The notes under the pieces are model-generated. The model worked only from the letters and a program-made list of their open reading frames with translations, did no database searches and was not told the origin of the DNA. Shown piece by piece: positions 28,963 through 58,805 of a stretch of DNA of 64,000 bases; the stretch's first letter is position 1, and every line of letters begins with the position of its first letter. Source of the DNA: Spirochaetaceae bacterium (GTDB lineage: Bacteria > Spirochaetota > Spirochaetia > Treponematales > Treponemataceae); assembly GCA_017614995.1 (NCBI GenBank), contig JAGAAX010000014.1, forward strand, positions 62,001 to 126,000, given 5' to 3'. Made by a program: the position numbers and the translations under genes.

Positions 28963-30818
<1,856 letters not shown>

Positions 30819-31070
30819 ATGAAGACTATAACGGTTTGCATGGGCAGTTCATGTTTCAGCAGGGGCAATTCTGCAAATACCAAGATTATTCAGAATTTTA
30901 TAGAAGAATATAACTTGTCAGACTCTGTTCAAGTCCGGGGCTGCCTGTGCGAGGGCGAATGTAAGCATGGTCCGAATATCCGCATAGACGACAAGCTTTT
31001 TTCAAATGTCTATTCAGAAGGCTTAATAGATTTGCTTCAGCACGAACTTTTGCAGGAGAAACCTCAATGA
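30819..31070 (+). CDS. Thioredoxin-like [2Fe-2S] ferredoxin (NuoE/HydC-like)
   Basis: An 83-residue protein with the four-cysteine pattern of thioredoxin-fold [2Fe-2S] proteins: CMGSSC near the N-terminus and GCLCEGECKHGP near residues 41-52. Such proteins appear as the NuoE subunit of complex I and as small electron carriers with [FeFe]-hydrogenases. It is the first gene of the operon, and its stop overlaps the start of the sensory hydrogenase by 4 bp, so it probably exchanges electrons with that protein. Confidence 0.9.
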   Translation: MKTITVCMGSSCFSRGNSANTKIIQNFIEEYNLSDSVQVRGCLCEGECKHGPNIRIDDKLFSNVYSEGLIDLLQHELLQEKPQ

Positions 31071-32803
31071 ATTTTCTCTATCCAATTTATACAGAACAGA
31101 CAGAATGTCAGGACTGCTACAAATGCATCAGACAGTGCCCTGTTAAGGCTATACGCGTAGAGAACGGTCATGCGATGGTTGTTTCTGAGCTTTGCATTAT
31201 GTGCGGAAACTGCGTAATTAACTGTCCGGCAAAGGCAAAGCATGTCCGCGACGACATTCAAAAAGCAAAGCAGCTTATACGCCTAAGGAAGCGTGTAATT
31301 GCCTCACTTGCACCGTCTTTTGCTTCAGAATTTTCGGAATACTCGCCTGAGCAGATTGTTGCCGCACTAAAAAAGCTGGGCTTCTGGGGTGTTTCAGAAA
31401 CGGCGCTCGGCGCAGATTTTGTTTCTTCTCATCTTTCAGAAGAATTTAATAAAATGGAAAAAGACAAAAACGCTCAGAAGCTTTTTCTTTCTTCGGCGTG
31501 CCCTTCAGTTGTGGAATTTATAAAGCAGTACATGAGCAGCTACGCACCTTACATTACAGACTGCGCTTCGCCGCTTTTGGCACATGCACGCTACTTAAAG
31601 AAAATCTACGGCAGCGACATCGGCGTAATCTTTATTGGTCCATGTATCGCAAAAAAAGGCGAGGCAGACTCTTTTTCAGAGATTGACGCGGCGATAACTT
31701 TTGAAAACTTAAGAAAGTGGATCTCAAAAGAAGGAATCACGCCGTATAACTGTAGCCCCAAAGAGGACGACAGATTTATTCCGCAAAAAGCGGCACAGGG
31801 TGCGCTCTACCCTGTAGGCGGCGGCATGATTGCGTCTGTCAACAATTACGGCAACCCTATCCGCTCAATGTCAGTTTCCGGCATAGGCCTTATAAAAGAA
31901 GCCTTAGAAGGTCTTGATGTTTCAGGTTTGAAAGAGCCGCTTTTTATGGAGCTGCTTGCGTGCAAAGGCGGCTGCATAAACGGTCCTGTAACAAAGCAGA
32001 AAGCCGCATCTGCCCTGCGCCATGTTCAGCTTATGCAATACGCCGACAAAGTTGAAAAAACACTGCCGAAAGCTACGCTGCGCGACAGACCTGCGCTTCA
32101 GGGTACACTGCCTGTAAACGCAATTCCGAGAGCGGCACACACAGAAGAAGAAATACGCGACGCACTCCGCACAGTCGGAAAATATTCGTCAATTGACGAG
32201 GTAAACTGCGCAAGCTGCGGCTACGACACATGCCGCGCCTTTGCCGAGGCTATGCTCGACAACAGAGCCGAAAAGACAATGTGCGTTTCTTATATGCGGA
32301 AGCTTGCGCAAAAAAAGGCAAACGGACTTATACGCGCAATTCCGGGCGGCGTGGTTATTGCAGACAAAGACCTGAAAATAGTTGAATGTAACGAAAATTT
32401 TGCGCGTCTTTTGGGTTCAGACGTACTTGAAATGTACGAGATTAAGCCCGGCATGGAAGGCGCGGCTTTGGACAAGCTCACCGGTTTTGCGCGCTTCTTT
32501 TCAGACGTTATCTCGACAAACGGCCCTGATGTAATTGACCGCGACGTGCACGAAGGCAAAAAGATTTTTCATGTTTCAGTCTTTGCAATTGAAAAAGAAT
32601 CTATTGCAGGCGGCGTTATCGAAGATGTTACCGCCCCGGAAGTTCAGAAGCACAGAATTATAAGCCAGGCAAAAAAGGTTATAGACAAAAACCTGTCGGT
32701 TGTTCAGCAGATTGCGTTTCTGCTAGGCGAAAACGCCGCCGAATCAGAGTCCATTCTTAACTCAATTATCGAGTCGTTCTCAGAGGATGAAGATGAACAG
32801 TGA
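31067..32803 (+). CDS. Sensory [FeFe]-hydrogenase with PAS domain (group C, HydS-like)
   Basis: A 578-residue protein. Two [4Fe-4S] ferredoxin clusters come first (Cys14, 17, 20, 24 and 43, 46, 49, 53). The H-cluster domain follows, with SSACPS at 142-147, GPCIAKKGE at 191-199 and ACKGGC at 298-303. A four-Cys [4Fe-4S] motif lies at 381, 384, 389 and 406, and a PAS domain at about 418-530. The four H-cluster ligands are present (Cys145, 193, 299, 303), but the proton-relay Cys of catalytic enzymes is Ala144. Group C sensory hydrogenases are known for this domain order and for replacement of that residue. The role is presumably to sense H2 and pass a signal to the phosphatase encoded next. Confidence 0.9.
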   Translation: MNFLYPIYTEQTECQDCYKCIRQCPVKAIRVENGHAMVVSELCIMCGNCVINCPAKAKHVRDDIQKAKQLIRLRKRVIASLAPSFASEFSEYSPEQIVAALKKLGFWGVSETALGADFVSSHLSEEFNKMEKDKNAQKLFLSSACPSVVEFIKQYMSSYAPYITDCASPLLAHARYLKKIYGSDIGVIFIGPCIAKKGEADSFSEIDAAITFENLRKWISKEGITPYNCSPKEDDRFIPQKAAQGALYPVGGGMIASVNNYGNPIRSMSVSGIGLIKEALEGLDVSGLKEPLFMELLACKGGCINGPVTKQKAASALRHVQLMQYADKVEKTLPKATLRDRPALQGTLPVNAIPRAAHTEEEIRDALRTVGKYSSIDEVNCASCGYDTCRAFAEAMLDNRAEKTMCVSYMRKLAQKKANGLIRAIPGGVVIADKDLKIVECNENFARLLGSDVLEMYEIKPGMEGAALDKLTGFARFFSDVISTNGPDVIDRDVHEGKKIFHVSVFAIEKESIAGGVIEDVTAPEVQKHRIISQAKKVIDKNLSVVQQIAFLLGENAAESESILNSIIESFSEDEDEQ

Positions 32804-33995
32804 CAAGCCTTTTATCGAAGTAGCGCATTATCAGGTTTGCAAGCACAAACAGGGCGCGCCCGGTGACGTCTTTCTCTCACAGAAAAACCCGGCAGACGGC
32901 AGAGTTATCACCACGCTTTCTGACGGACTTGGTTCAGGCATTAAAGCCGGTGTGCTTGCCACGCTTACAGCCACAATGGCGACGCGCTTTGTCGCTTCTG
33001 ACATTCCGGTAAAGCGCGCTGCTGAAATTATAATGAACACGCTGCCTGTCTGCCAAAACCGCGGCATAAGCTACGCGACATTTACGCTTGTCGATATTGA
33101 ACCGAATTCGACTGTGCGCGTTGTTGAATACGACAATCCGCCGTATATTCTGGTGCGCGAGCAGACTGTTGTTGAGCCTTTAAAAGACATTTCGACTTTT
33201 GAGCGCAAGGACAAGTCTACTGCCCCAAAAATCGAGGCGCACCTGCATTATTCGCAGTACGAGGCAAGACCGGGCGACAGGCTTGTGTTCTTTTCTGACG
33301 GCGTAACGCAGGCAGGCATGGGCAGCGCGGCGTTTCCTTTTGGGTGGGGACTGGCAAACGTGCAGGACTTTATCTTGAAGAAGATTCTGCTTGACCCTCA
33401 GATAAGCGCGCGAGATCTTGCGCGGCTTGTAGTCTGCGAGGCTTTGTTTCACGACAGCCACAAAGCAAAAGACGACATAACCTGCGGCGTAATCTATTCA
33501 AGAAAGCCGCGCGACCTGCTCATTATTACAGGCCCGCCAATGCACAAAGAAAACGACACAAACATTGCGCGTATTTTCAGTCTTTTTGACGGTAAAAAAG
33601 CCGTATGCGGCGGCACGACAGCCAATATTCTTGCAAGGGAACTTAACAGGCAGATTAGGGTTCAGCTAAAAGACCCCGACCCGACAGTTCCGCCTTTTTC
33701 TGAAATGGACGGCGCAGACCTGATTACAGAAGGCATTATAACGATGGGCAAGGTCGCTGAACTGCTTGAAAAAGGCGAACAGCCGTCTTATACACGTGTG
33801 AATGCGGCGACAAAGCTTGTCGAGATGATTCTTGACAGCGACCGCATTCAGTTTGTAGTCGGCACAAAAATCAACGAGGCACATCAAGACCCAAATATGC
33901 CTGTTGAGCTTGAAATAAGACGGAATGTAATTAAAAAGATTGCGGCAATGCTCGAAGAGAAGTATCTTAAAGAGGTGCATATTCAGTTTTTTTAA
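32793..33995 (+). CDS. SpoIIE-type PP2C serine phosphatase
   Basis: A 400-residue cytoplasmic protein. Residues 1 to about 235 form a SpoIIE/RsbU-like PP2C domain with metal-binding motifs TLSDGLGSG, FFSDGVTQAG and AKDDITCGVI. A further 160 residues are not recognised, though LLIITGPP and AVCGGTTANILA look like an ordered alpha/beta domain. ATG 32793 is preferred because AGAGG ends 6 nt upstream; ATG 32787 is too close. The gene overlaps the sensory hydrogenase by 11 bp. In related clusters of other anaerobes a PP2C phosphatase accompanies HydS. The target phosphoprotein is unknown; no kinase is encoded here. Confidence 0.88.
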   Translation: MNSDKPFIEVAHYQVCKHKQGAPGDVFLSQKNPADGRVITTLSDGLGSGIKAGVLATLTATMATRFVASDIPVKRAAEIIMNTLPVCQNRGISYATFTLVDIEPNSTVRVVEYDNPPYILVREQTVVEPLKDISTFERKDKSTAPKIEAHLHYSQYEARPGDRLVFFSDGVTQAGMGSAAFPFGWGLANVQDFILKKILLDPQISARDLARLVVCEALFHDSHKAKDDITCGVIYSRKPRDLLIITGPPMHKENDTNIARIFSLFDGKKAVCGGTTANILARELNRQIRVQLKDPDPTVPPFSEMDGADLITEGIITMGKVAELLEKGEQPSYTRVNAATKLVEMILDSDRIQFVVGTKINEAHQDPNMPVELEIRRNVIKKIAAMLEEKYLKEVHIQFF

Positions 33996-34020
33996 ATCTA
34001 CAGGCAACAAAGGAGATTTT

Positions 34021-34275
34021 ATGGAAAAGATTAAGGTTTCAATTTGCACAGGAACAGCTTGTTTCGTTATGGGTGCATCAGAGATTATGCTTCTTGAAGA
34101 CAATCTGCCGCAAGATTTGCGCGGCAAAGTCGAAGTTGAGGGCATTCCATGTCTTGAAAAATGCAAGGACTCGTCCTGCGGCAAAGCTCCTTTTGTGCTT
34201 GTAGGCGGCGAGGTTCTGCCGCAGGCAACAGTAACCTCTGTTATAGAAAAAATAAGGACGAAAATAAATGCTTAA
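34021..34275 (+). CDS. Thioredoxin-like [2Fe-2S] protein
   Basis: An 84-residue protein with cysteines in CTGTAC (residues 9-14) and PCLEKCKDSSC (near 43-53), a variant of the thioredoxin-like [2Fe-2S] pattern. AAGGAG precedes ATG 34021. The stop overlaps the next gene by 8 bp. It is the second protein of this fold in the operon and probably serves the group B-like hydrogenase that follows. Confidence 0.87.
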   Translation: MEKIKVSICTGTACFVMGASEIMLLEDNLPQDLRGKVEVEGIPCLEKCKDSSCGKAPFVLVGGEVLPQATVTSVIEKIRTKINA

Positions 34276-35731
34276 TCTCAACAATAAAACAGCTTTTATC
34301 AAGCGTGAAATTCTTGTGCGCATTGCGAAGCTTCAGCTTGAAGGAAAACTTGAGTCGCAGGTTTACAAAATCCCTGCGGAAATGGCGCCTAAAGGTTCTA
34401 CACCGCACCGCTGCTGCATCTACCACGACCGCGAGATTCTGCGTATGCGCACTATGGCGCGTCTCGGTTTTTCAGTTGAAGACGCCGATGACGAAAAGCC
34501 TTTAAACGAATTTGCTTCAGAGGCTTTGGAACGGAAGTCTCCGACATGGCCGATGCTTACTGTTTTGGACGAAGCCTGCAACGCCTGTGTGCGCACACAT
34601 TATATGGTAACAAACGCATGTCAGGGTTGTCTTGCCCGCCCATGTATGATGAACTGCGGCAAAAAGGCAATCGAAATTAAGAACGGACGCGCCCACATTG
34701 ACGAAGAAAAATGCGTCAACTGCGGTTTGTGTATGCAGAACTGTCCGTACCATGCAATTATCAAGATTCCTGTGCCATGCGAAGAAGCCTGTCCGGTGGG
34801 CGCAATCAGCAAAAACGAGAACGGCAAAGAGCGCATTGACTACGACAAATGTATTTTCTGCGGAAACTGCATGAGAGAGTGCCCTTTCGGCGCGATGATG
34901 GACAAAAGCCAGCTTGTTGACGTGCTTAAGCATATTATGGCAGGCAAAAAAGTTGTCGCCATGTACGCGCCGGCGATAGCCGCTCAATTCAGGGCAGCAC
35001 CAGGTCAGCTTGAAAGCGCGCTTCTAAAAGCAGGTTTCAGCCGCGTCTGGGAAGTTGCAATCGGTGCTGACATCTGCGCTGACAAAGAAGCGCACGAGTT
35101 TGAAGAGCGCATGAAAAACGGCGAAAAGCTCATGACAACGTCGTGCTGCTCGGCTTATGTGCGCGCTGTGCGCATTCATGTGCCGGAACTTGTGCCATGC
35201 ATCTCTGACACAAGAAGCCCGATGCACTATACGGCAGAACTTGCTAAAAAAGAAGACCCTGACTGCATAAGCGTTTTTATCGGACCATGTCTTGCAAAAC
35301 GCCGCGAGGGCTTTGACGACGAGCTTGTGGATTATGTTCTTTCAGTTGAAGAAATCGGTGCGCTTTTTATCGCAAAAGAAATTGATATTGCCAAAGAACC
35401 GGCCGCCGAGCTTGACACAATTCCGACTGCTTCGGCACGTAATTTTGCTATTACAGGCGGTGTCGCCGAGTCTGTAAAAATCAGGCTCAAAGACCCGTCA
35501 ATTCTAAGACCGGCTGTAATCAACGGACTTAACAAAGCCGGAATGAAGCAGCTCGCCTCTTACGGCAAGATTCAGGCCGACGCTGTACAGCAGACTGAAA
35601 CAGACCCGAACCTTGTCGAAGTAATGGCATGTGAGGGCGGCTGTATTGCAGGACCGGGTGTTGTAACAAACCCGAAAGTTGCCGCAATTCAGCTTAAGAA
35701 ATACGTTGAAGCCGGAATTCAGAACAAATAA
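34268..35731 (+). CDS. [FeFe]-hydrogenase, group B-like
   Basis: A 487-residue hydrogenase. Three [4Fe-4S] clusters are suggested by cysteines at 118-130, 149-159 and 195-205. The H-cluster motifs are TSCCSAYV (291-298, Cys293 and Cys294), GPCLAKR (339-345, Cys341) and MACEGGC (453-459, Cys455 and Cys459). The proton-relay Cys293 is kept, so the protein could be catalytic. The L2 motif has Gly-Pro in place of Met-Pro. This set fits group B [FeFe]-hydrogenases, which are ferredoxin-dependent in the few known cases. Maturases (HydE, HydF, HydG) are not in the window. No NAD- or flavin-binding subunits are present, so it is not a bifurcating complex. Confidence 0.9.
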   Translation: MLNLNNKTAFIKREILVRIAKLQLEGKLESQVYKIPAEMAPKGSTPHRCCIYHDREILRMRTMARLGFSVEDADDEKPLNEFASEALERKSPTWPMLTVLDEACNACVRTHYMVTNACQGCLARPCMMNCGKKAIEIKNGRAHIDEEKCVNCGLCMQNCPYHAIIKIPVPCEEACPVGAISKNENGKERIDYDKCIFCGNCMRECPFGAMMDKSQLVDVLKHIMAGKKVVAMYAPAIAAQFRAAPGQLESALLKAGFSRVWEVAIGADICADKEAHEFEERMKNGEKLMTTSCCSAYVRAVRIHVPELVPCISDTRSPMHYTAELAKKEDPDCISVFIGPCLAKRREGFDDELVDYVLSVEEIGALFIAKEIDIAKEPAAELDTIPTASARNFAITGGVAESVKIRLKDPSILRPAVINGLNKAGMKQLASYGKIQADAVQQTETDPNLVEVMACEGGCIAGPGVVTNPKVAAIQLKKYVEAGIQNK

Positions 35732-35938: not shown

Positions 35939-36718
35939 TTATTCGATGTTCAGTTTGTAGCGCAGAATCAAGTAGCAGATGGTAAACCAGATTGCTGAAA
36001 AAATCAGCGGAACAGCGAATAATATAATCATATCACTACTGCTAAATCCGCCTAATGATTTACATACATTAGTTTCAATACACAGACCTACAACAACAAC
36101 CATAATTTCTGCGACACGCTTAAAATTGCTGACCACATGGCTTGTACACATCGCCACAAAGAAAAGCATAATTCCTGACGAAAGCCAGAATAAATAACCG
36201 AATACCATGCGCAATATGTCCAGAGATTTCTCATTTGAAAACCAAAAAAGAAAATCCTCCCAACCGTTCCATGCGGTAAAAGATGCTGAAAAACCGACGA
36301 TTGTACAAATTAGACCCCAGATAAGGCAGCTTACAAGCTTGCTTGCAAGATGGTTTGAAATTCCTACTGGAAGAGAAAAATTAAGATAAGCTTCTCTGCC
36401 AAAAAATGACTTCTTGAATCTTCCGCAAAGTATTACAATGCTTATACATACAGAAGCCGTAAGCAGACTGAAGCACACAAACGACATAATTCCTTCTGCT
36501 TCAAAAAAGAAGCTGCCTGAACTGTTTTCAAAAGCGACTTTGCTTGCAAGTGCAAAGCGTGTCAGTACACCAATAATCAGCACTGCGCAATAAATCGGTA
36601 CAAGCGTCCTGCATGAAGCAGAAAGTTCATATTTGAGCAGCTTGAAAAATCTGATAAACGAAAGCTTTAGATCAGCAAAAAAGTCTTTATTATTTTCAAG
36701 TTTTGTTTCTGTCAGCAT
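35939..36718 (-). CDS. ABC transporter membrane subunit (YtrC/D-like)
   Basis: A 259-residue integral membrane protein with about six hydrophobic helices and a short polar N-terminus. It overlaps the ATPase gene by 7 bp. With the ATPase and the GntR regulator it forms the layout of ytrABC-type operons, which respond to cell-wall-active compounds in Bacillus. No sequence motif is diagnostic; the call rests on topology and context. Confidence 0.8.
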   Translation of the reverse strand: MLTETKLENNKDFFADLKLSFIRFFKLLKYELSASCRTLVPIYCAVLIIGVLTRFALASKVAFENSSGSFFFEAEGIMSFVCFSLLTASVCISIVILCGRFKKSFFGREAYLNFSLPVGISNHLASKLVSCLIWGLICTIVGFSASFTAWNGWEDFLFWFSNEKSLDILRMVFGYLFWLSSGIMLFFVAMCTSHVVSNFKRVAEIMVVVVGLCIETNVCKSLGGFSSSDMIILFAVPLIFSAIWFTICYLILRYKLNIE

Positions 36719-37410
36719 TTGAATTCCTCCCTGAAAAGAGCGTCGATAGAAGTACCGGTTTGCTGTCTTATTTCGTCAACATCGCCGGAACGTACAATCG
36801 AGCCGTTTTTGATAAAGACTGCGTGTGTCAGAACCGGCTCTACGTCTGCAATCAAGTGCGTAGAGATAAGCACAGCAGCGTCCTCGTTATAATTGCCGAT
36901 TATCGTGTTTAGGATATAATCGCGGGCAGCCGGGTCTACGCCGCCAATCGGCTCATCAAGCAAATAGAGCTTTGCCTTGCGAGACATCGTAAGAATAAGC
37001 TGAACCTTTTCACGCGTGCCTTTTGAGAGCGCCTTCAACATGCTTTCCTTTTTGATGTCAAGCCGCTGAATCATGTCGTAGGCTTTTGCCTTGTCAAAAT
37101 CAGCGTAAAAATCTTCAAAAAGTTTCACAAGCTGGTTTACAGACATCCAGTCGTTAAGATAGTCGTGGTCAGGCAGATAAGACACAACTTCTTTTGTCTT
37201 TACGCCCGGTTTGTTGCCGTCAATCAGCACGCTTCCGCTTGTAACGGTGAGAAGCCCTGCCGCAATCTTTATAAATGTGCTTTTGCCTGAACCGTTCGGC
37301 CCAAGCAGCCCTATTACCGAACCGGAAGGCAGCTCCAAATCAACATTATTCAACGCTCTTGTGCTGCCATATTGTTTTGTCAAACCATGACAAGAAAGAA
37401 TTACTGACAT
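36712..37410 (-). CDS. ABC transporter ATPase (YtrB-like)
   Basis: A 232-residue ATPase with Walker A GPNGSGKS (about 36-43), signature LSKGTREK and Walker B KLYLLDEPIGGVD, followed by the switch His in STHLI. The signature LSKGxREK is typical of ATPases paired with YtrA-type regulators. It overlaps the regulator gene by 10 bp and the permease by 7 bp, giving a tightly coupled three-gene operon. Confidence 0.93.
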   Translation of the reverse strand: MSVILSCHGLTKQYGSTRALNNVDLELPSGSVIGLLGPNGSGKSTFIKIAAGLLTVTSGSVLIDGNKPGVKTKEVVSYLPDHDYLNDWMSVNQLVKLFEDFYADFDKAKAYDMIQRLDIKKESMLKALSKGTREKVQLILTMSRKAKLYLLDEPIGGVDPAARDYILNTIIGNYNEDAAVLISTHLIADVEPVLTHAVFIKNGSIVRSGDVDEIRQQTGTSIDALFREEFKC

Positions 37411-50797: not shown

Positions 50798-52990
50798 CTA
50801 TTTTACTAGAATTGTTATAAAAGTGCTTTCGCCGGTTTCAGAAACAGCCTCTAAACCATGTCTGCCCTGCTCCACAGGAATGTACCAGGAGAAAGGACGC
50901 TCAGAAACGCCGGACAGAACACCGTCTATATAAAGAGCGGCTGTGTTTCCATTTCCGCCTGTGACATCAATCTTAAGATTCTGCATTTCGCGGAGCGATT
51001 GGTCGTAAAGAAAAACGGCGTTGTCCTGCGGATATACAAACTCAAAAGCACCGCCGTAAGAAAGCGAGCCGTTCATGTTTTTGCCGCCAAACCAGCGCTG
51101 GTATTCATTCGGATAATTTATTTCGATTCTTCCGTTTCTTAAAACGTGATAACTGCATGATTCTGGCTTTGTACCTGCAAGCACAAACTCTTCTGCAAGG
51201 GCTGTGCAATATTCTGTGGGCGCCATGCCAGAAAGCGCACAGACTTTCTGTTTGACGTACTTTTCAGGCTTGTCGAATTCCATCTGCGCTTTTGAAGCAC
51301 TGCTCTGCTTTTCAAGACTGTCTAAAATATAGCGCACTACGCCAGCCGGAATTGAGCTGCCGGTCTCGCCGATTACGGTTTCGCCTGTTACGTTGCCCAT
51401 CCAGACACCGGCGGTATAACGCTTTGTTGAGCCGAGTGCCACAATGTTCTGAAACTGATTTGATGTGCCGGTCTTAAAAATTGCAGGATAAGGCGTGTCA
51501 AAAACTTTTGCAAAGCCAAAGCCCAAAGAGCGCGCGTTTCTGTCCGAGAGCATATCGCAGATTATTGCGGCTGTGTCTTTTGAATAGACTCTGACCGCCT
51601 GTTCTTCAGTGCCTTGTGAGTTTTCAGAAGCGCTTGCGGTAAAGCAGAGGTTGCGTACCGTTCCGCCGCGGGCAAAAACCGTAAAGCCGCGCACAAGCTC
51701 GTACAGAGGTACTTCACCGGCACCAAGCGCGAGCGAAAGCCCCAAATTGTTGCGCTGTTCATAAAGCGAATCAAAGCCCGCTTTTTGCAGAAGCTCTATA
51801 TAGCGGTCAATGCCGAGCCTGTAAAGCAGCGTAACAGCCGGAATGTTGAGGCTTGAAGCAAGGCAGACGCGTAAACGCTGCGGCCCGTTAAAGCGGTTGT
51901 TGAAATTCTGCGGAACATAAACTTCTGAACTGCCATAATCTGTTGGAACATCGGGCAGCACAGTCGTCGGCGGAAAACCGTTGTCCAAAGCCATTGCATA
52001 CAAAAAAGGCTTCATCGAACTGCCTGTCTGGTTTCTGACAAGCACGCCGTCAATCTGTCCTGTGTCCTCGCGGTAAAAATTTGTACTGCCGCACCAGACA
52101 AGAATTTCGCCGGTCTGGTTGTCTAAAACCAAAGCCGCACCGTCTGCAACGCGCGCGTCTGAATACATGTTCAAAGTCTGTTCAATGTGCTGCCTTACGT
52201 CCTCAGTAAATTCTGCGTCAACAGAAAGTCTTACATCAGGTGGAATAACGCCTTTATACTGGGTTTTAACCCAGTTCATAAAATGCGGCACTTCCTCTGG
52301 ATAATCAAAAGAAGTTGCTGATGGAACTTGGTTTATGTACAAGGCCGGCCGCCGCGGTATGAGAGAAAGAGCCTTTATCTGCTCATTGTTCAGTTCGTAA
52401 AGAGAAAGACCGTAAAAATTTCTTGCGGCACTTGTTATGCCTTCAGTTCTAAACCCAAAAGGCAGATTGTTCAAATAAAGCTCAAGAATCTGTTTTTTGC
52501 TTAATTTTGCTTCTATACGGAATGCAAGAAAAGCTTCTTTAATCTTGCCGCCGAATGTTGTGCGTTTAGAACCGCGCGGCACAACCATTCTTGCAAGCTG
52601 CATTGTAATTGTAGAAGCGCCGCTTACAGTGCGCCTGTTTTTTGCATTCTGCACAGCGGCACGCAAAATTGCAGGCAGATAAACACCATGGTGCTTGTAA
52701 AATGCGCTGTCCTCGGCTTCTATAAACACAGCCTGCACTTCTGGCGGAATCTTTTCGAGCGGCGTCCATTCGCGACGCAGACCGTCATCAAGAGCCATTA
52801 TCTCTACAAGATTGTTGTTGCGGTCGTAGAAGCGAGTGCTGTACTGGTGGTTTTTAAATTCAGTTAATGCTTTGAAAGGCAGAATCTTCAGTGCTAAAAA
52901 CAGAAGAAGCCAGACAAAAAAAGCGGCTGCCAAAACCTTGAGCACAAATCTCAAAGGTTTCGGCAGCTTTTTCCAGACAAACTTATTCAA
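50798..52990 (-). CDS. pbpC: Penicillin-binding protein 1C
   Basis: A bifunctional peptidoglycan synthase of about 730 residues. After one membrane helix comes a GT51 glycosyltransferase domain, with EAEDSAFYKHHGVYLPAI carrying the catalytic Glu. The transpeptidase domain has SxxK in GSSMKPF, SSLN and KTGTS. A C-terminal BiPBP domain completes the PBP1C layout. The start is uncertain: TTG 52990 overlaps the A2M stop by 8 bp and has AAGG upstream, while ATG 53035 would add 15 residues read from A2M coding sequence. The A2M-PBP1C pairing is a known bacterial arrangement. Confidence 0.95.
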   Translation of the reverse strand: MNKFVWKKLPKPLRFVLKVLAAAFFVWLLLFLALKILPFKALTEFKNHQYSTRFYDRNNNLVEIMALDDGLRREWTPLEKIPPEVQAVFIEAEDSAFYKHHGVYLPAILRAAVQNAKNRRTVSGASTITMQLARMVVPRGSKRTTFGGKIKEAFLAFRIEAKLSKKQILELYLNNLPFGFRTEGITSAARNFYGLSLYELNNEQIKALSLIPRRPALYINQVPSATSFDYPEEVPHFMNWVKTQYKGVIPPDVRLSVDAEFTEDVRQHIEQTLNMYSDARVADGAALVLDNQTGEILVWCGSTNFYREDTGQIDGVLVRNQTGSSMKPFLYAMALDNGFPPTTVLPDVPTDYGSSEVYVPQNFNNRFNGPQRLRVCLASSLNIPAVTLLYRLGIDRYIELLQKAGFDSLYEQRNNLGLSLALGAGEVPLYELVRGFTVFARGGTVRNLCFTASASENSQGTEEQAVRVYSKDTAAIICDMLSDRNARSLGFGFAKVFDTPYPAIFKTGTSNQFQNIVALGSTKRYTAGVWMGNVTGETVIGETGSSIPAGVVRYILDSLEKQSSASKAQMEFDKPEKYVKQKVCALSGMAPTEYCTALAEEFVLAGTKPESCSYHVLRNGRIEINYPNEYQRWFGGKNMNGSLSYGGAFEFVYPQDNAVFLYDQSLREMQNLKIDVTGGNGNTAALYIDGVLSGVSERPFSWYIPVEQGRHGLEAVSETGESTFITILVK

Positions 52991-55900
52991 TAGTCCAAAC
53001 CTTGCCGTTTGAACGTCCGAAAATTTCAGGCTCATACATACATTCTGCTGTAACAGAAGGTGTCTGATATGTGCCCGAGCGGACTGCTCTGAACAGGAAG
53101 TCTACTTCCTGTCTTCCGCGTCCCATATAGTTCCAGAAATATTGAACTTCGTTTTCGTAAATCGTTTCGTTAGACAATCTTGTGTAGTAGTCGTCCCACC
53201 ACCAGTCGCCGTCATTCTGCTTTTTGTCCTCCTCATATTCCTGGAATGAACCTGTTGTAACAAATGCGGCATTCTGAATTTCAGCACCGGCTGGAACAGG
53301 AACACGCAGAGCAACAAATGTGCGGTCTCTTGTTGTAGAGATAACTACATGAGCCTTGTAAGTCTTTCCTGCTACAAGCTTGTCGCCTGTAACAATCTGA
53401 CCTGTAGCAAGATCTTTGTATTCGCAGAATACGCTCAAGCCTTCGTCGCGCGCAAACTGCTTGTCTGCATTAACAGCGTATTTCATCGAGATTGTGTAGA
53501 ACAAATCTCCTGTACCGTTCTTAGAGAACTCAACAGGAAGCTCTTTATCTTTGGCAAGACCCTTAACAGGCTCTTCTGTCAAAGCACAGGTCTTTTCTAC
53601 AGGGTCAGCACCCAAGCCCTTGAATTTACCGTCAACAAATTTCTTGCCATTTATCAAAGCTTCAGCCGTAAAGTTGGTGTCCTCAAGGTTGTTTGCCTTA
53701 ATATATGTAGCAAACGCATCAAGAACACGCGCTGTTGTAGCAGTTGACTTCCAGTAACCACGGGAAGAACGCTGAAGCTGCAAAAGCTGATAAACAAGGC
53801 GGCCAACGTTGTCATTTTCAGGGTCGGCAACTGAATAGAACTTTAACGCAAGTGCATAAGGTTCTATTTCACCGCCGAAGAACTGCCAGTAAGACCAGCT
53901 CTGGTGAGTTATATCAATTCCGCGTGTAGTCGGGCGCATAAAGCTTGAAATCTTTTTCTGCACTTCTTTTACTTTGGCAGTCTGCTTGCGTTCCGCATAC
54001 ATAAGACCTGCGTAGCAAAGCTCTGAAACCGTAGCTTTCTCGTCGTTTACAATCGAGTCAATTGTAGAATCTTCTACATATTTGCCAAGACGGACAAGAA
54101 CATAGTTTACATAAGCCTTCATGTACAAAGACTGTGAATAATGCCTGTCAGAAATCAGTCTTGCATATTCAGATGAAATATAGCTTGCAAGCTTATTCGG
54201 GTTAATCTTAACGTCGTAGTCGTTCTCTTTTGCGGCTGCAACAATTTCACCGATGCGCACGCTTACAGGGAAAGATGCAACATTGCCGGTCGGCCAGTAT
54301 GGGAAGCTTCCGTCTGCACGCTGATAATTCTTCCATTTCTTAAGCTCGGCTTCTACAACTTTGCGCGGCTTCTTTACCTCGCTGTCGAGACCCAAAACTT
54401 TGATGTAGTCTGCGAAATAGACCATCGGCATAATTGCACTTGAACGCTGCTCAAGACAGCCGTACGGATAATGGAATACATAATCTACAGCTTCTTTCAA
54501 AACGCCGAGGCGTGTCGCATCAAGCGTTATCGAGATATTCCCCTGATTGTTGTCTGAATCACCAGGAATTACGAGAAGCTCTTTTGCAGAAGCGTTCTTG
54601 TCTTTGCCTGTTGAGCCGGTTGTTGTTACAGTCTCAAAAACATACGGACGTTCAATTTCAATAGGCTTCAAGATTCTCTCGTTAAGAATCTTTGAGCGTA
54701 CCGTAAACTGAACAGTAACAAAGCCTGCTTTTTCAGTTTTAAGCGGGAACATTACAATGCTTGTCGAATTTGCCTGAACGGTTATCGACTTCTTAGTTTC
54801 TTTTATAAGAGAAGCATGACCGACAGCTCTTTCAATGCCGTCAACCTCAACAGGCTGACCAGACTTTTCGATGCCGTCAAATATTTCGGCTTCAATATCC
54901 AAAGTCTGCGGTGTATCCTGAAGGTTAGAGATTACAAGACCTGCCTCGCTTATATCGTTCAGGCGCAAAGTTGAAGGCACAACGTCTCTGGCTGAAACTG
55001 GGTTGGCAACATTGACCTCGCTTTCAGAAATTGCAAATTTGTCGCCGTTTACGCCGACAGCCGTAATACGGTAAGCCGTCAGATTGTCCGGCCAGACAAA
55101 GGTGCACTCAACAGTACCGTCTGCGCCGGTTACAAGATAAGGCTCAAATACTGCGGTTGGGTCAAAATTCTTGCGCTCGTTCATCTTTTCAGAATCATCG
55201 CCCTCGGCATCGCCGCCGAACATGCGCTTTGCAGCGTAAACTACCGGGTCAATGAGCATTGAGCGTGAATCGCCGCCCCTTGTGCATATTGGATAGTGGT
55301 AATCTCTATAGAAATATCCGACTGGGTCTGGAACATGGTAGCCGACAAGGTCGATTACACCGCGGTCAACTGCCATAAACGAAATTTCTGCGCCAGATAC
55401 AGGCGAGCCGTTCTTTGTAGCCTTGAGCGTAAACTTTGCAGTTTCGCCCGGTCTGTAAGAAGATTTGTCGCCCTTTACAGCAATATCAAATTTGACAGAA
55501 TCTCTGTTTACGCGGATTGGTGTAAGACCAAAGTAGCCTTTAGGCTTGTTCATGTCAGGCGTGTCAAAGTCTTTGACAGGCTCGCCAGTACGTGTTGAAT
55601 ATGTCGAAAGTGTTACATAAGCAATCGGCAGATATTCAGCCTTAACAGGAATATCAAGTACAGTTACAGATTCTTTAATATCAAGAATTTCCTGATGGAA
55701 AACGCCCTCGCGTTCAACTGTAAGAAGATATCTGCCCTTTTCAAGCGGGCTCTGGAGCATAATCTGCGCCGTCTCGCCAATCGAATAAGAGTCTTTGTTG
55801 CATGTCAGTGTCAGCTCGTCTGTCTGGTCGCCGTACCAGTACCAGTCTGAACCGATTACATAGAATCTGCGCTCTGTTACAACGTCGCTGCCGTTTTTGT

Positions 55901-58805
55901 CTGTACTAGACAATCTGATAAGATAAGAACCGCTCTTTGACGGTGTAATGCTGAATGAACCGTCTTTATCAAGCGGCACAGTCATTGTCTGGTCTGTAAC
56001 CATATTGCGCACATATCTTGTGTTTACTGTGCCGTAAACGCCCATCTGCTGAACAAGGTTCCATTCTTCGCGCTGAAGCTCAACAGTAATAGAGCGTTTT
56101 GCCTTTGCTTTCGGTATAACGCTGTCTGAAACAGCCGAGCCGTCAGGTGTTACAGCCTGATATTTGAAATCGAGCTTGTCGCCTTTTTTGGCAAAACCTT
56201 TTATATTTGTCGGTGCGCTCAAGCCAATGTAATAAAGTGCCGGATGAACTACAACAGAGGCAGAAGCCGCAATCATCTGGTTGCTCTGGTCTGTTACGCG
56301 CACTTCGGAACGGTACTGATAAGCCATGCCTTTCAAAGATTCACCGCCAGAAGCAATTGAAGTTGAGCCTTTGCCTGTTACAGAAAGCGTACCTTGATCT
56401 CTGCCCAAATAAGAGCGGCTGTCATAGCCGAACATCGGCCCGAATTTGTAGCCGTCAAATTTTGCGCCGCTCAAGCTGAAACCGCAAGGTTCTCTGAACC
56501 ATGAAGTCTCAAAGCCACAGCCTGCAAGACTTCCGCCGCCAAGATATTCGGCTGAAACAGAAGCGTCGATGCGGTCGCCGCGTATGTATGTTATATTCGG
56601 TATAGAGGCAGAAGCCTGGAATCTGAGACGCTCAAAAAATGCAATCTGGAAATATTCGCTCTGTGTAGCTTCATTGCCGTTCGGCATTTTTCTTGTATAT
56701 CTGATAACGTAATCGCCCGGTTCAAGGTCTGAAGGCAGCGTAACTGTGTGGTAGAAACCGCCGGAAGCCGTAGTCTTGCCTTTGAATGTCTTAATAGGCT
56801 CTGCCTTCCATGCGTCCTCTTTTATTTCTATAGTATAGTCACCTACAAAAGGCTCAAGCTTGCCGAGCTTTTGCGTGCGGTCAATTCCGCGGAATGTAAG
56901 CTTTTCGCCAGGCTTGTAGAGCTTGCGGTCTGTAAACATAAAGACGCGCATCATTTCGTCCTCGGCGTACTGCGGCTCTGCAATACCGACTGTATCATAG
57001 CGCCACATGCTTGTAATGTCCGGGCCGAACACAACGCGGTCGCCCTGGCTTACAACTTCAATGTACATATTGTTTGATGTATTTTTCAGAGCCTTGCTCA
57101 AAGCGCCTTTTTCAAAATCAATTATGGCAAGACCGTTGCTGTCAGTTACCGCTTTTCCAAGTTCTGTATGTTTTCCGCCTTTAATGTCTTTGTTAAAAAG
57201 AGAAACACTATTGAGCATGTCATAGAAATAGCTGTTTGAGTTGTAATTAAGCTTGTACGCAAAAGCACCGACATTTGCGCCTGCAACAGGCTCGCCTGTC
57301 TTTAAAGACGTAACAAGAACAACAGCCTTGTTATAGCCGTAACGCACTGTAACGCCCAAGTCTGTAACCTGAATTGTCTGCGTATTAGACTGCGTATAAT
57401 ACTGGTCGTTCCATGAATTTTTTACAATCATGTCTGCATTAAAAAAGACATTGCCTACAGAAAGCCCGCCGCTCTTATGCAGGAAAGAGTCAAGGTCTAC
57501 AGTCTCAACTACAGCTTCGTTCTTTGGAATGTCGCCGTCGCCATAAGTCTTTGTAACAGCATCTTTTGTCCTTGAGCGCAAAGTATAGCTTGAACCAGAC
57601 GAAATATTCTGAAACTGGAAAGCAAGCTTTGGACTAAACTGCGCCTCAAGAATTCCAGTGCCGTAATCTTTAAATGTAGCCATACTTGCTGCAGCAGGAA
57701 CTTCAACATCAACGCTTATAGAAGATGGTGTTTTTCTTCCATATATATCGCTTATTCCTGCCGGCAGAACCATTGAGTAAGTTTCTTCGTAATTTACAGG
57801 CAGACCGAAAACAATAACGCGGCTGCCGGAAACTTCTACATTGTCTTTGGTTATTTTCATCGCCGGAGTTGTCTTGATGCCGCTTACGAGCATGTCAAGA
57901 TTTTTGGCGTCAAGCTGATGAGAGAAGTAAAAGTAAACAGGGTTTTTGTACTTTCCGTAGCTGTAGGCGTCTGTGTCTGTGTTGCGCAATGTAAGCGGCA
58001 GCAGTGTGTGGAAGCTCTGAATCTGGTCATTTTCAGTTTTAAGAGAGCCTTTCTGTGCCTGTGCCCCGCTTTTGAGAGCAATATCGATGCGCTTGTTTTC
58101 AGGCATTTTGTCTTTTATAGCAATAAGCACGCCGTTTGCGTCTTTTATCTTTGAAAAAGACGCATTGTAAGTGTTAGAATCTTCGTCATAGACAACAATT
58201 GAGCTTTTTACTACGTCTAAATCAACCGGATAATTGAAGAACACGCCGATGTCGCCGGCAGCAGCAACAGGAACATCATCACTGTCGATGTAAGGCATAA
58301 ATGCGTTCGGGTTTTCTTCTGTAAGCTTGCGTGCCGCGCCGTAACCGGGCACAACCGAAACAAGCTTGAGTTCTTCAGTCTTAAAAGAAAAGCTTGTTAT
58401 GCCGGTTAAGGCTGTTCCGTTTATAGACTTTACATTTGAATTGATTTTTACAACATATTCTGTCTGCGGAATGACTTCGTCGGCACATTCAAAGCTCAAA
58501 AGGCTTGTACCGTACCATCTGAAAACGCCTTTCAGAGCAGGCTCTATCGTAATAATATCAGATTTATCTGAAGGTTCGCCAAGCTTTGCAAGCGGCACAA
58601 CCGGCTCAGAAAACTGCACATATATAGAAGGATTTTTCACTTCATCCGGCAGTGTTCCGCTCGGTTCATAGCTTATAACGCAAAATTCCCCCGAGTCAGC
58701 GTTTGCATTTGAAGCTGCTTTGTTTTTGCCTTTACACCCGGCAGCCAAAACCGCCACAAGCAGCAAAGCAAACAACTTTCTTGCAAAACTTAAGCTCATC
58801 TTCAT
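52983..58805 (-). CDS. Alpha-2-macroglobulin family lipoprotein
   Basis: A 1940-residue periplasmic protease trap. The signal sequence ends at Cys24 (VLAAGC), which anchors it as a lipoprotein. A long series of beta-sandwich macroglobulin domains precedes the thioester domain, where YPYGCLEQ places the reactive thioester between Cys1450 and Gln1453. Bacterial A2Ms hold attacking proteases covalently through this bond and are usually encoded with PBP1C, thought to repair the cell wall after damage. GGAGG lies 5 nt before ATG 58805. It is the first gene of the pair. Confidence 0.95.
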   Translation of the reverse strand: MKMSLSFARKLFALLLVAVLAAGCKGKNKAASNANADSGEFCVISYEPSGTLPDEVKNPSIYVQFSEPVVPLAKLGEPSDKSDIITIEPALKGVFRWYGTSLLSFECADEVIPQTEYVVKINSNVKSINGTALTGITSFSFKTEELKLVSVVPGYGAARKLTEENPNAFMPYIDSDDVPVAAAGDIGVFFNYPVDLDVVKSSIVVYDEDSNTYNASFSKIKDANGVLIAIKDKMPENKRIDIALKSGAQAQKGSLKTENDQIQSFHTLLPLTLRNTDTDAYSYGKYKNPVYFYFSHQLDAKNLDMLVSGIKTTPAMKITKDNVEVSGSRVIVFGLPVNYEETYSMVLPAGISDIYGRKTPSSISVDVEVPAAASMATFKDYGTGILEAQFSPKLAFQFQNISSGSSYTLRSRTKDAVTKTYGDGDIPKNEAVVETVDLDSFLHKSGGLSVGNVFFNADMIVKNSWNDQYYTQSNTQTIQVTDLGVTVRYGYNKAVVLVTSLKTGEPVAGANVGAFAYKLNYNSNSYFYDMLNSVSLFNKDIKGGKHTELGKAVTDSNGLAIIDFEKGALSKALKNTSNNMYIEVVSQGDRVVFGPDITSMWRYDTVGIAEPQYAEDEMMRVFMFTDRKLYKPGEKLTFRGIDRTQKLGKLEPFVGDYTIEIKEDAWKAEPIKTFKGKTTASGGFYHTVTLPSDLEPGDYVIRYTRKMPNGNEATQSEYFQIAFFERLRFQASASIPNITYIRGDRIDASVSAEYLGGGSLAGCGFETSWFREPCGFSLSGAKFDGYKFGPMFGYDSRSYLGRDQGTLSVTGKGSTSIASGGESLKGMAYQYRSEVRVTDQSNQMIAASASVVVHPALYYIGLSAPTNIKGFAKKGDKLDFKYQAVTPDGSAVSDSVIPKAKAKRSITVELQREEWNLVQQMGVYGTVNTRYVRNMVTDQTMTVPLDKDGSFSITPSKSGSYLIRLSSTDKNGSDVVTERRFYVIGSDWYWYGDQTDELTLTCNKDSYSIGETAQIMLQSPLEKGRYLLTVEREGVFHQEILDIKESVTVLDIPVKAEYLPIAYVTLSTYSTRTGEPVKDFDTPDMNKPKGYFGLTPIRVNRDSVKFDIAVKGDKSSYRPGETAKFTLKATKNGSPVSGAEISFMAVDRGVIDLVGYHVPDPVGYFYRDYHYPICTRGGDSRSMLIDPVVYAAKRMFGGDAEGDDSEKMNERKNFDPTAVFEPYLVTGADGTVECTFVWPDNLTAYRITAVGVNGDKFAISESEVNVANPVSARDVVPSTLRLNDISEAGLVISNLQDTPQTLDIEAEIFDGIEKSGQPVEVDGIERAVGHASLIKETKKSITVQANSTSIVMFPLKTEKAGFVTVQFTVRSKILNERILKPIEIERPYVFETVTTTGSTGKDKNASAKELLVIPGDSDNNQGNISITLDATRLGVLKEAVDYVFHYPYGCLEQRSSAIMPMVYFADYIKVLGLDSEVKKPRKVVEAELKKWKNYQRADGSFPYWPTGNVASFPVSVRIGEIVAAAKENDYDVKINPNKLASYISSEYARLISDRHYSQSLYMKAYVNYVLVRLGKYVEDSTIDSIVNDEKATVSELCYAGLMYAERKQTAKVKEVQKKISSFMRPTTRGIDITHQSWSYWQFFGGEIEPYALALKFYSVADPENDNVGRLVYQLLQLQRSSRGYWKSTATTARVLDAFATYIKANNLEDTNFTAEALINGKKFVDGKFKGLGADPVEKTCALTEEPVKGLAKDKELPVEFSKNGTGDLFYTISMKYAVNADKQFARDEGLSVFCEYKDLATGQIVTGDKLVAGKTYKAHVVISTTRDRTFVALRVPVPAGAEIQNAAFVTTGSFQEYEEDKKQNDGDWWWDDYYTRLSNETIYENEVQYFWNYMGRGRQEVDFLFRAVRSGTYQTPSVTAECMYEPEIFGRSNGKVWTIE

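Follow-up and report, generated by a model that had tools for sequence, protein, structure and literature searches.

A phosphatase-linked sensory [FeFe]-hydrogenase operon in a spirochaete: a likely hydrogen-responsive signalling unit whose sensing end seems exchangeable

We have analysed a five-gene operon (positions 30819-35731, forward strand) in a 64,000-nucleotide stretch, the window, of contig JAGAAX010000014.1 from the Spirochaetaceae bacterium assembly GCA_017614995.1. The operon encodes a small [2Fe-2S] protein, a sensory [FeFe]-hydrogenase with a PAS domain, a SpoIIE-type phosphatase, a second small [2Fe-2S] protein and a group B [FeFe]-hydrogenase, and we consider it likely to be a hydrogen (H2)-responsive signalling unit that uses the phosphatase to adjust the group B enzyme. 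The genes, their domains, the catalytic residues, the phylogeny, the conserved linkage of sensor and phosphatase, and a conserved tail on the sensor are established in this analysis. A first-pass annotation had already named the five genes, and all of them are located as described there, with Pfam and NCBIfam support for each. It overlooked a C-terminal [4Fe-4S] motif and the conserved tail after the PAS domain in the sensor, as well as an extra C-terminal domain in the phosphatase.

The sensory hydrogenase (P0002, 578 residues, 31067-32803, forward strand like all operon features below) matches PF02906 at 177 bits, with iron-sulphur and PAS_8 families above their cut-offs. From the N-terminus, it carries two [4Fe-4S] motifs of the Fer4 families (residues 14-57, 31106-31237), in which eight cysteines are invariant, the PF02906 H-cluster domain (residues 75-307, 31289-31987), a C-terminal [4Fe-4S] motif (residues 379-407, 32201-32287; PF04060, 34.2 bits) and a PAS domain (residues about 421-525, 32327-32641; PF13188 (PAS_8), 23.2 bits against a cut-off of 21.8). 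The protein ends with a tail (residues about 530-575, 32654-32791) that shows invariant columns in the alignment and reads VxQxIAxLLGExAAE-like. The earlier observation that Ala144 replaces the proton-relay cysteine while all four H-cluster cysteines are kept is confirmed in an alignment of 18 C3 sequences, where the ligands Cys145, Cys193, Cys299 and Cys303 are all invariant and Ala144 is at least 90% conserved. The substitution is a common one, since about 43% of HydDB sensory sequences have alanine at this position (PMC10055695).

The phosphatase adjoins the sensor in 79 of 80 named C3 loci, and since these come from many phyla, a chance association is excluded. We have also built the phylogeny of H-cluster domains that had been proposed as a check, using 152 domains and a short search with Shimodaira-Hasegawa-like approximate likelihood ratio test (SH-aLRT) support only, without HydDB reference sequences, Thermotoga maritima HydS, Ruminococcus albus HydS or HfsB. 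In this tree the window sensor lies inside a clade of 87 phosphatase-linked sensors, with a few divergent phosphatase-linked sensors placed outside it, and the second hydrogenase falls inside a 29-row B clade (SH-aLRT 98); the A3 (SH-aLRT 99), C2 (99) and C1-like (100) rows form separate groups. The label C3 for P0002 thus denotes a probable assignment from its architecture and its place among the phosphatase-linked sensors, in a clade separate from the A3, B, C2 and C1-like rows. Overall, the initial claim of a sensory group C protein with phosphatase output is well supported by the tree, the domain content, the neighbourhood and published precedents.

The phosphatase (P0003, 402 residues, 32787-33995; PF07228, 59.6 bits) overlaps the sensor gene by 17 nucleotides. 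Its metal-binding residues D27, D46, D171, D229 and D230 are invariant in 87 aligned sequences, and its structural model, with a predicted local distance difference test (pLDDT) score of 88, finds PP2C/SpoIIE structures as best Foldseek matches (3pu9, SpoIIE and Rv1364c, E 1e-13 to 2e-12). The active site is complete, and the protein is assigned to the SpoIIE/PPM type of Ser/Thr phosphatases. In the model the fold begins at residue 9 with no N-terminal sensory region, and therefore control must come from outside.

Beyond the catalytic fold, the phosphatase carries a domain of ~160 residues (240-402, 33504-33992; model pLDDT 90) with invariant GGT (275-277), E315-G316, D352 and N363 in the 87-sequence alignment. 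It has no Pfam family, no sequence match among solved structures and no Foldseek match below E 0.001. With VIA-align it can be superposed on FhcABCD chain F (Z 9.4, root-mean-square deviation 3.4, 116 aligned residues, 11% identity), and similar Z values are obtained for formylmethanofuran dehydrogenase B and NuoG; because these values are little above the usual background, we call the modelled domain only Rossmann-like. The domain occurs in 18 of 198 genomes of the host's phylum, one copy each, in frames of about 390-490 residues. A C3 sensor adjoins the domain-bearing phosphatase in 15 of these 18 genomes, the window operon being the case in the host's own genome, and all ten sampled genomes without the domain also lack a C3-like sensor.

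The same phosphatase family is not confined to hydrogenase loci: in seven other genomes it adjoins proteins with a PAS domain and the tail but no hydrogenase domain. Three genomes of one family (G061, G096, G117) encode a PAS protein of 173-186 residues beside the phosphatase, with a P0001-like [2Fe-2S] gene ahead of it. These [2Fe-2S]-PAS-phosphatase triads (L137 935-12211, L138 and L139) stand in carbon monoxide (CO) dehydrogenase/acetyl-CoA synthase clusters; the one annotated in full, L137, holds CO dehydrogenase (TIGR01702, 682 bits), acetyl-CoA synthase alpha/beta (1018 bits), a CooF-like ferredoxin, NuoE and NuoF. In the phylum of the Desulfobulbus genome, the phosphatase C-terminal domain is present in 20 of 395 genomes, and four of them (G387, G614, G670, G596) encode, next to the phosphatase, a Cache-HAMP-receiver-PAS protein that is 766-805 residues long and in three of the four is preceded by a small [2Fe-2S] gene. 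At these Cache-type loci (L164 6704-10428, L165, L166 and L167) a CoA-enzyme activase-like gene (BadF/DUF2229) is also seen upstream in L166 and L167.

A tail profile built from C3 sensors only was searched against 3081 open reading frame fragments, and all of its matches are genes directly before the phosphatase, among them those of the PAS-only proteins, with E values near 1e-12, and those of the Cache proteins, with E values between about 1e-11 and 1e-10. In the phosphatase tree the hydrogenase-free variants fall between C3-linked branches (SH-aLRT 90 to 100), with long branches and an uncertain order; on this placement, at least one exchange of the H-cluster input seems to have taken place. 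On balance we favour a view in which the constant unit is a PAS domain with its tail and a PP2C phosphatase with its dedicated C-terminal domain, usually joined by a small [2Fe-2S] protein, and the input end is exchangeable: C3 proteins have an H-cluster domain there, the PAS-only proteins of the CO dehydrogenase/acetyl-CoA synthase clusters have nothing, and certain genomes of the Desulfobulbus phylum have Cache-HAMP-receiver. In that case C3 would belong, as one version among others, to a broader family of anaerobic redox-signalling systems. We have found no description of the tail, the phosphatase C-terminal domain or the hydrogenase-free versions in the literature searched, which mostly excluded subscription journals, including the 2012 paper of Ballor et al. 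on treponeme hydrogenases and hydrogen sensors (cited in PMC4070709), and their newness is provisional.

Considering these observations, we propose that H2, or the electron balance set by H2, alters the redox state of the H-cluster in the C3 protein, whose catalysis, given Ala144, is probably slow in a way that suits sensing. The [4Fe-4S] clusters, N-terminal and C-terminal, would carry the signal on to the PAS domain and the C-terminal tail, and the tail would control the neighbouring PP2C phosphatase, so that sensor and phosphatase together may be seen as a PAS-phosphatase split into two genes. In this scheme the phosphatase would always be governed by PAS and tail, to which the H-cluster region supplies one kind of input. 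The phosphatase may then dephosphorylate a Ser/Thr-phosphorylated protein, and the group B hydrogenase would thereby be adjusted in its expression or activity, possibly along with fermentation genes.

Several points weigh against this proposal. That H2 is the signal, in which direction it acts and what the substrate is are things we infer; the contact between tail and phosphatase is likewise suggested by linkage and sequence conservation. In the hfs operon of Thermoanaerobacterium thermosaccharolyticum, a counterpart compared below, much of the phenotype of the hfsB deletion is obtained with hfsD alone, and the effect may be partly catalytic and not regulatory (PMC11837493). H2 binding and phosphatase activity in this organism are predicted. 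Finally, the operon contains no gene for a kinase, a STAS protein or a transcription factor, which leaves a gap at the output step.

One tentative way to fill this gap, possible and compatible with the H2-responsive reading since it concerns the output step only, is partner switching, in which the phosphatase would dephosphorylate a distant STAS anti-anti-sigma protein, oppose an RsbW-like kinase and so release a sigma factor or other regulator. SpoIIE-type phosphatases are typical of such pathways, and the search for orphan kinases and anti-sigma partners suggested earlier does turn up candidates in the genome, with nine SpoIIE-domain, six STAS and five HATPase_c_2 places. However, several of the STAS/RsbW-like genes adjoin other SpoIIE genes, and the operon lacks the kinase and STAS genes that an RsbU/RsbW/RsbV partner switch would place with the phosphatase; genes of these kinds exist elsewhere in the genome. 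We have also considered a kinase or STAS gene concealed in or beside the cassette and rejected it: phmmer searches with the genome's own RsbW-like and STAS proteins found no relatives in any C3 cassette locus, though distant kinases could escape them. The first-pass annotation was right that the operon has a phosphatase and no kinase, but by the same searches this is nothing special to it. In addition, the dedicated extra domain of the C3 phosphatases may point to a different substrate. For R. albus, a kinase adjoining the sensor has been proposed, as quoted in PMC5707799.

A different view of the input, which we regard as rather improbable, is that the C3 protein reads the redox state of ferredoxin or NADH by way of its [4Fe-4S] clusters together with the small [2Fe-2S] protein, with the H-cluster being an electron outlet or redox poise point and not an H2 receptor. 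The H-cluster-free PAS-phosphatase pairs with the same [2Fe-2S] type do indicate that the module can work without H2 at an H-cluster, and the CO dehydrogenase/acetyl-CoA synthase clusters in which they stand also handle ferredoxin and NADH. On the other hand, the invariance of the four H-cluster ligands among the 18 C3 sequences means that the H-cluster is under selection, and published expression changes track the H2 level (PMC6776011). That the C3 protein is merely a slow catalytic hydrogenase, with the phosphatase doing housekeeping on the operon enzymes and no H2 sensing, is very improbable given the PAS domain, the conserved tail and the near-universal phosphatase linkage, even though the related TmHydS, with alanine at the same site, keeps measurable activity (PMC10055695).

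These comparisons offer two handles on how C3 passes on an H2 signal: the sensor tail, which is the probable phosphatase contact, and the C-terminal domain of the phosphatase, where specificity for a substrate or ligand probably resides. With the PAS-only and Cache variants there are also natural controls for telling phosphatase control apart from the sensing of H2. How H2 governs fermentation is relevant to H2 release in gut and rumen and to the ethanol yield of engineered thermophiles.

The last gene of the operon (P0005, 487 residues, 34268-35731) had been called group B-like and can now be named plain group B, as it scores 541.4 bits with TIGR04105 against a cut-off of 450 and lies in the B clade. 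It is likely a ferredoxin-linked H2-releasing enzyme, and is probably the catalytic, regulated enzyme of the operon. The accompanying hydrogenase genes vary among loci: in the 49 of 80 C3 loci with enough flank, a group B gene is present in 21 and a NuoE-NuoF-HydA set in 16, with both in one and neither in 13. In Spirochaetota, 12 of 13 complete C3 loci have the group B gene, and other phyla often have NuoE-NuoF-HydA instead. In some Riflebacteria and Marinifilaceae, a second sensor-phosphatase pair directly follows the first cassette (L081 11052-13945, L112 11652-14548, L073 10037-13355, L093 9952-13278).

The first small [2Fe-2S] protein (P0001, 83 residues, 30819-31070) is thioredoxin-like (PF01257, 27.5 bits) and matches residues 570-639 of 7p5h chain A, the C-terminal [2Fe-2S] domain of an [FeFe]-hydrogenase alpha subunit (E 4.5e-9); a gene of this kind lies just upstream of the sensor in 64 of 80 C3 loci. 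The second has 84 residues (P0004 minus its first two residues; 34021-34275; PF01257, 28.3 bits), starting from an ATG at 34021 with AAGGAG upstream. Of the 21 sensor-linked loci with a group B gene, 20 have such a gene ahead of it, and none stands beside any of the nine treponeme group B genes without a sensor. Though these counts come from related, not independent, genomes and carry no test of significance, the direction is clear: the second [2Fe-2S] gene belongs to the sensor-linked set and not to group B enzymes, and P0004 as a general group B partner is rejected. Since the P0001 type, in turn, also accompanies PAS-phosphatase pairs without any hydrogenase domain, the former description of each hydrogenase as having its own [2Fe-2S] partner is misleading.

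The coordinates of the five open reading frames are confirmed, and the genes are tightly packed on one strand. At three of the four junctions the neighbouring genes share 4, 17 and 8 nucleotides, and at the remaining one they are 25 nucleotides apart, which suggests a single transcript. The operon is flanked by a divergent groEL (28963-30603, minus strand) and a convergent membrane/ABC pair (35939-37410, minus strand). A promoter-like element, TTGCAG-17 nucleotides-TAGAAT (30758-30786), lies ~33 nucleotides before the first start codon; it scores below threshold in a consensus promoter scan, and is kept in five same-genus loci where the flanking DNA diverges.

The genome, a 3.05 Mb assembly in 64 contigs, has six H-cluster domain genes, two in the operon and four elsewhere. 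It encodes HydG (897 bits), which is needed for H-cluster assembly, so this host can probably make H-clusters. A group A-type HydA is on contig C9. Two further H-cluster proteins (L004, G000:C37:751-1443; L005, G000:C16:74109-74801) are fused to methyl-accepting chemotaxis protein signalling domains, the HydDB chemotactic C2 type. Another (L006, G000:C16:118267-118920 plus flanks, minus strand) joins an H-cluster domain and an iron-sulphur motif to GGDEF and EAL in an 865-residue frame. This protein would tie H2 or redox sensing to cyclic di-GMP, and our literature search found no [FeFe]-GGDEF-EAL fusions. Apart from hydrogenases, a 1940-residue protein resembling bacterial alpha-2-macroglobulin adjoins a penicillin-binding protein 1C-like gene in the window (50798-58805, minus strand; identified by eye). 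Genes for alpha-2-macroglobulin and penicillin-binding protein 1C are a known pairing.

Among known systems, RsbP of Bacillus subtilis has a PAS domain that controls a PP2C phosphatase within one fused protein and has no H-cluster. The operon would share this PAS control of PP2C, but with two proteins in place of one and with the H-cluster added. Similar sensory clusters had been noted for anaerobic Firmicutes; these do exist, but such clusters are not limited to Firmicutes. The host here is a spirochaete of gut type, and the sensor's closest named relative is from an uncultured Spirochaetales bacterium (92% identity), followed by Treponema and Spirochaetaceae. In Vallitalea guaymasensis L81, described by HydDB class only, peg.96 (C3) and peg.98 (B) are almost adjacent as they are here (PMC6163223). 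The R. albus HydS/HydA2 cluster likewise links a group C PAS sensor and a phosphatase to a ferredoxin-only hydrogenase, but it counts eight genes, with an alcohol/aldehyde dehydrogenase among them, and the source places the hydrogenase in group A1 (PMC6776011). There the group C gene is co-transcribed with the hydrogenase and alcohol dehydrogenase, and when an H2 consumer is grown alongside in co-culture, the cluster drops 111-fold (PMC6776011).

HydDB names C3 "phosphatase-linked (putative)" and, in its passages on this class, lists the role as undetermined (PMC5037454). The class as outlined in those passages combines an H-cluster domain having all ligands, a PAS domain and an adjoining Ser/Thr phosphatase gene, as here; nothing defining differs, and the same passages do not mention the phosphatase C-terminal domain or the sensor tail. 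The hfsABCD operon of Thermoanaerobacterium saccharolyticum and T. thermosaccharolyticum has the order small protein, PAS sensory hydrogenase, serine phosphatase and ferredoxin-linked hydrogenase (PMC5707799, PMC11837493), the last assigned to group B (PMC8924675). HfsA is described as a partial match to [FeFe]-hydrogenase large subunits (PMC11837493); for P0001 the match is with the C-terminal domain of a subunit of this type. Ethanol yield and adhE transcripts rise when hfsA or hfsB is deleted, and hydrogenase activity rises when hfsB is deleted, but deletion of hfsC or hfsD gives no yield rise (PMC5707799); these genetics fit a regulatory role. Overall, HydDB C3 and the hfs operon already cover the window operon, and the arrangement is a known one: sensor, phosphatase and group B hydrogenase follow in the same order on one strand, and the operon here has one gene more, the second [2Fe-2S] protein before the group B gene.

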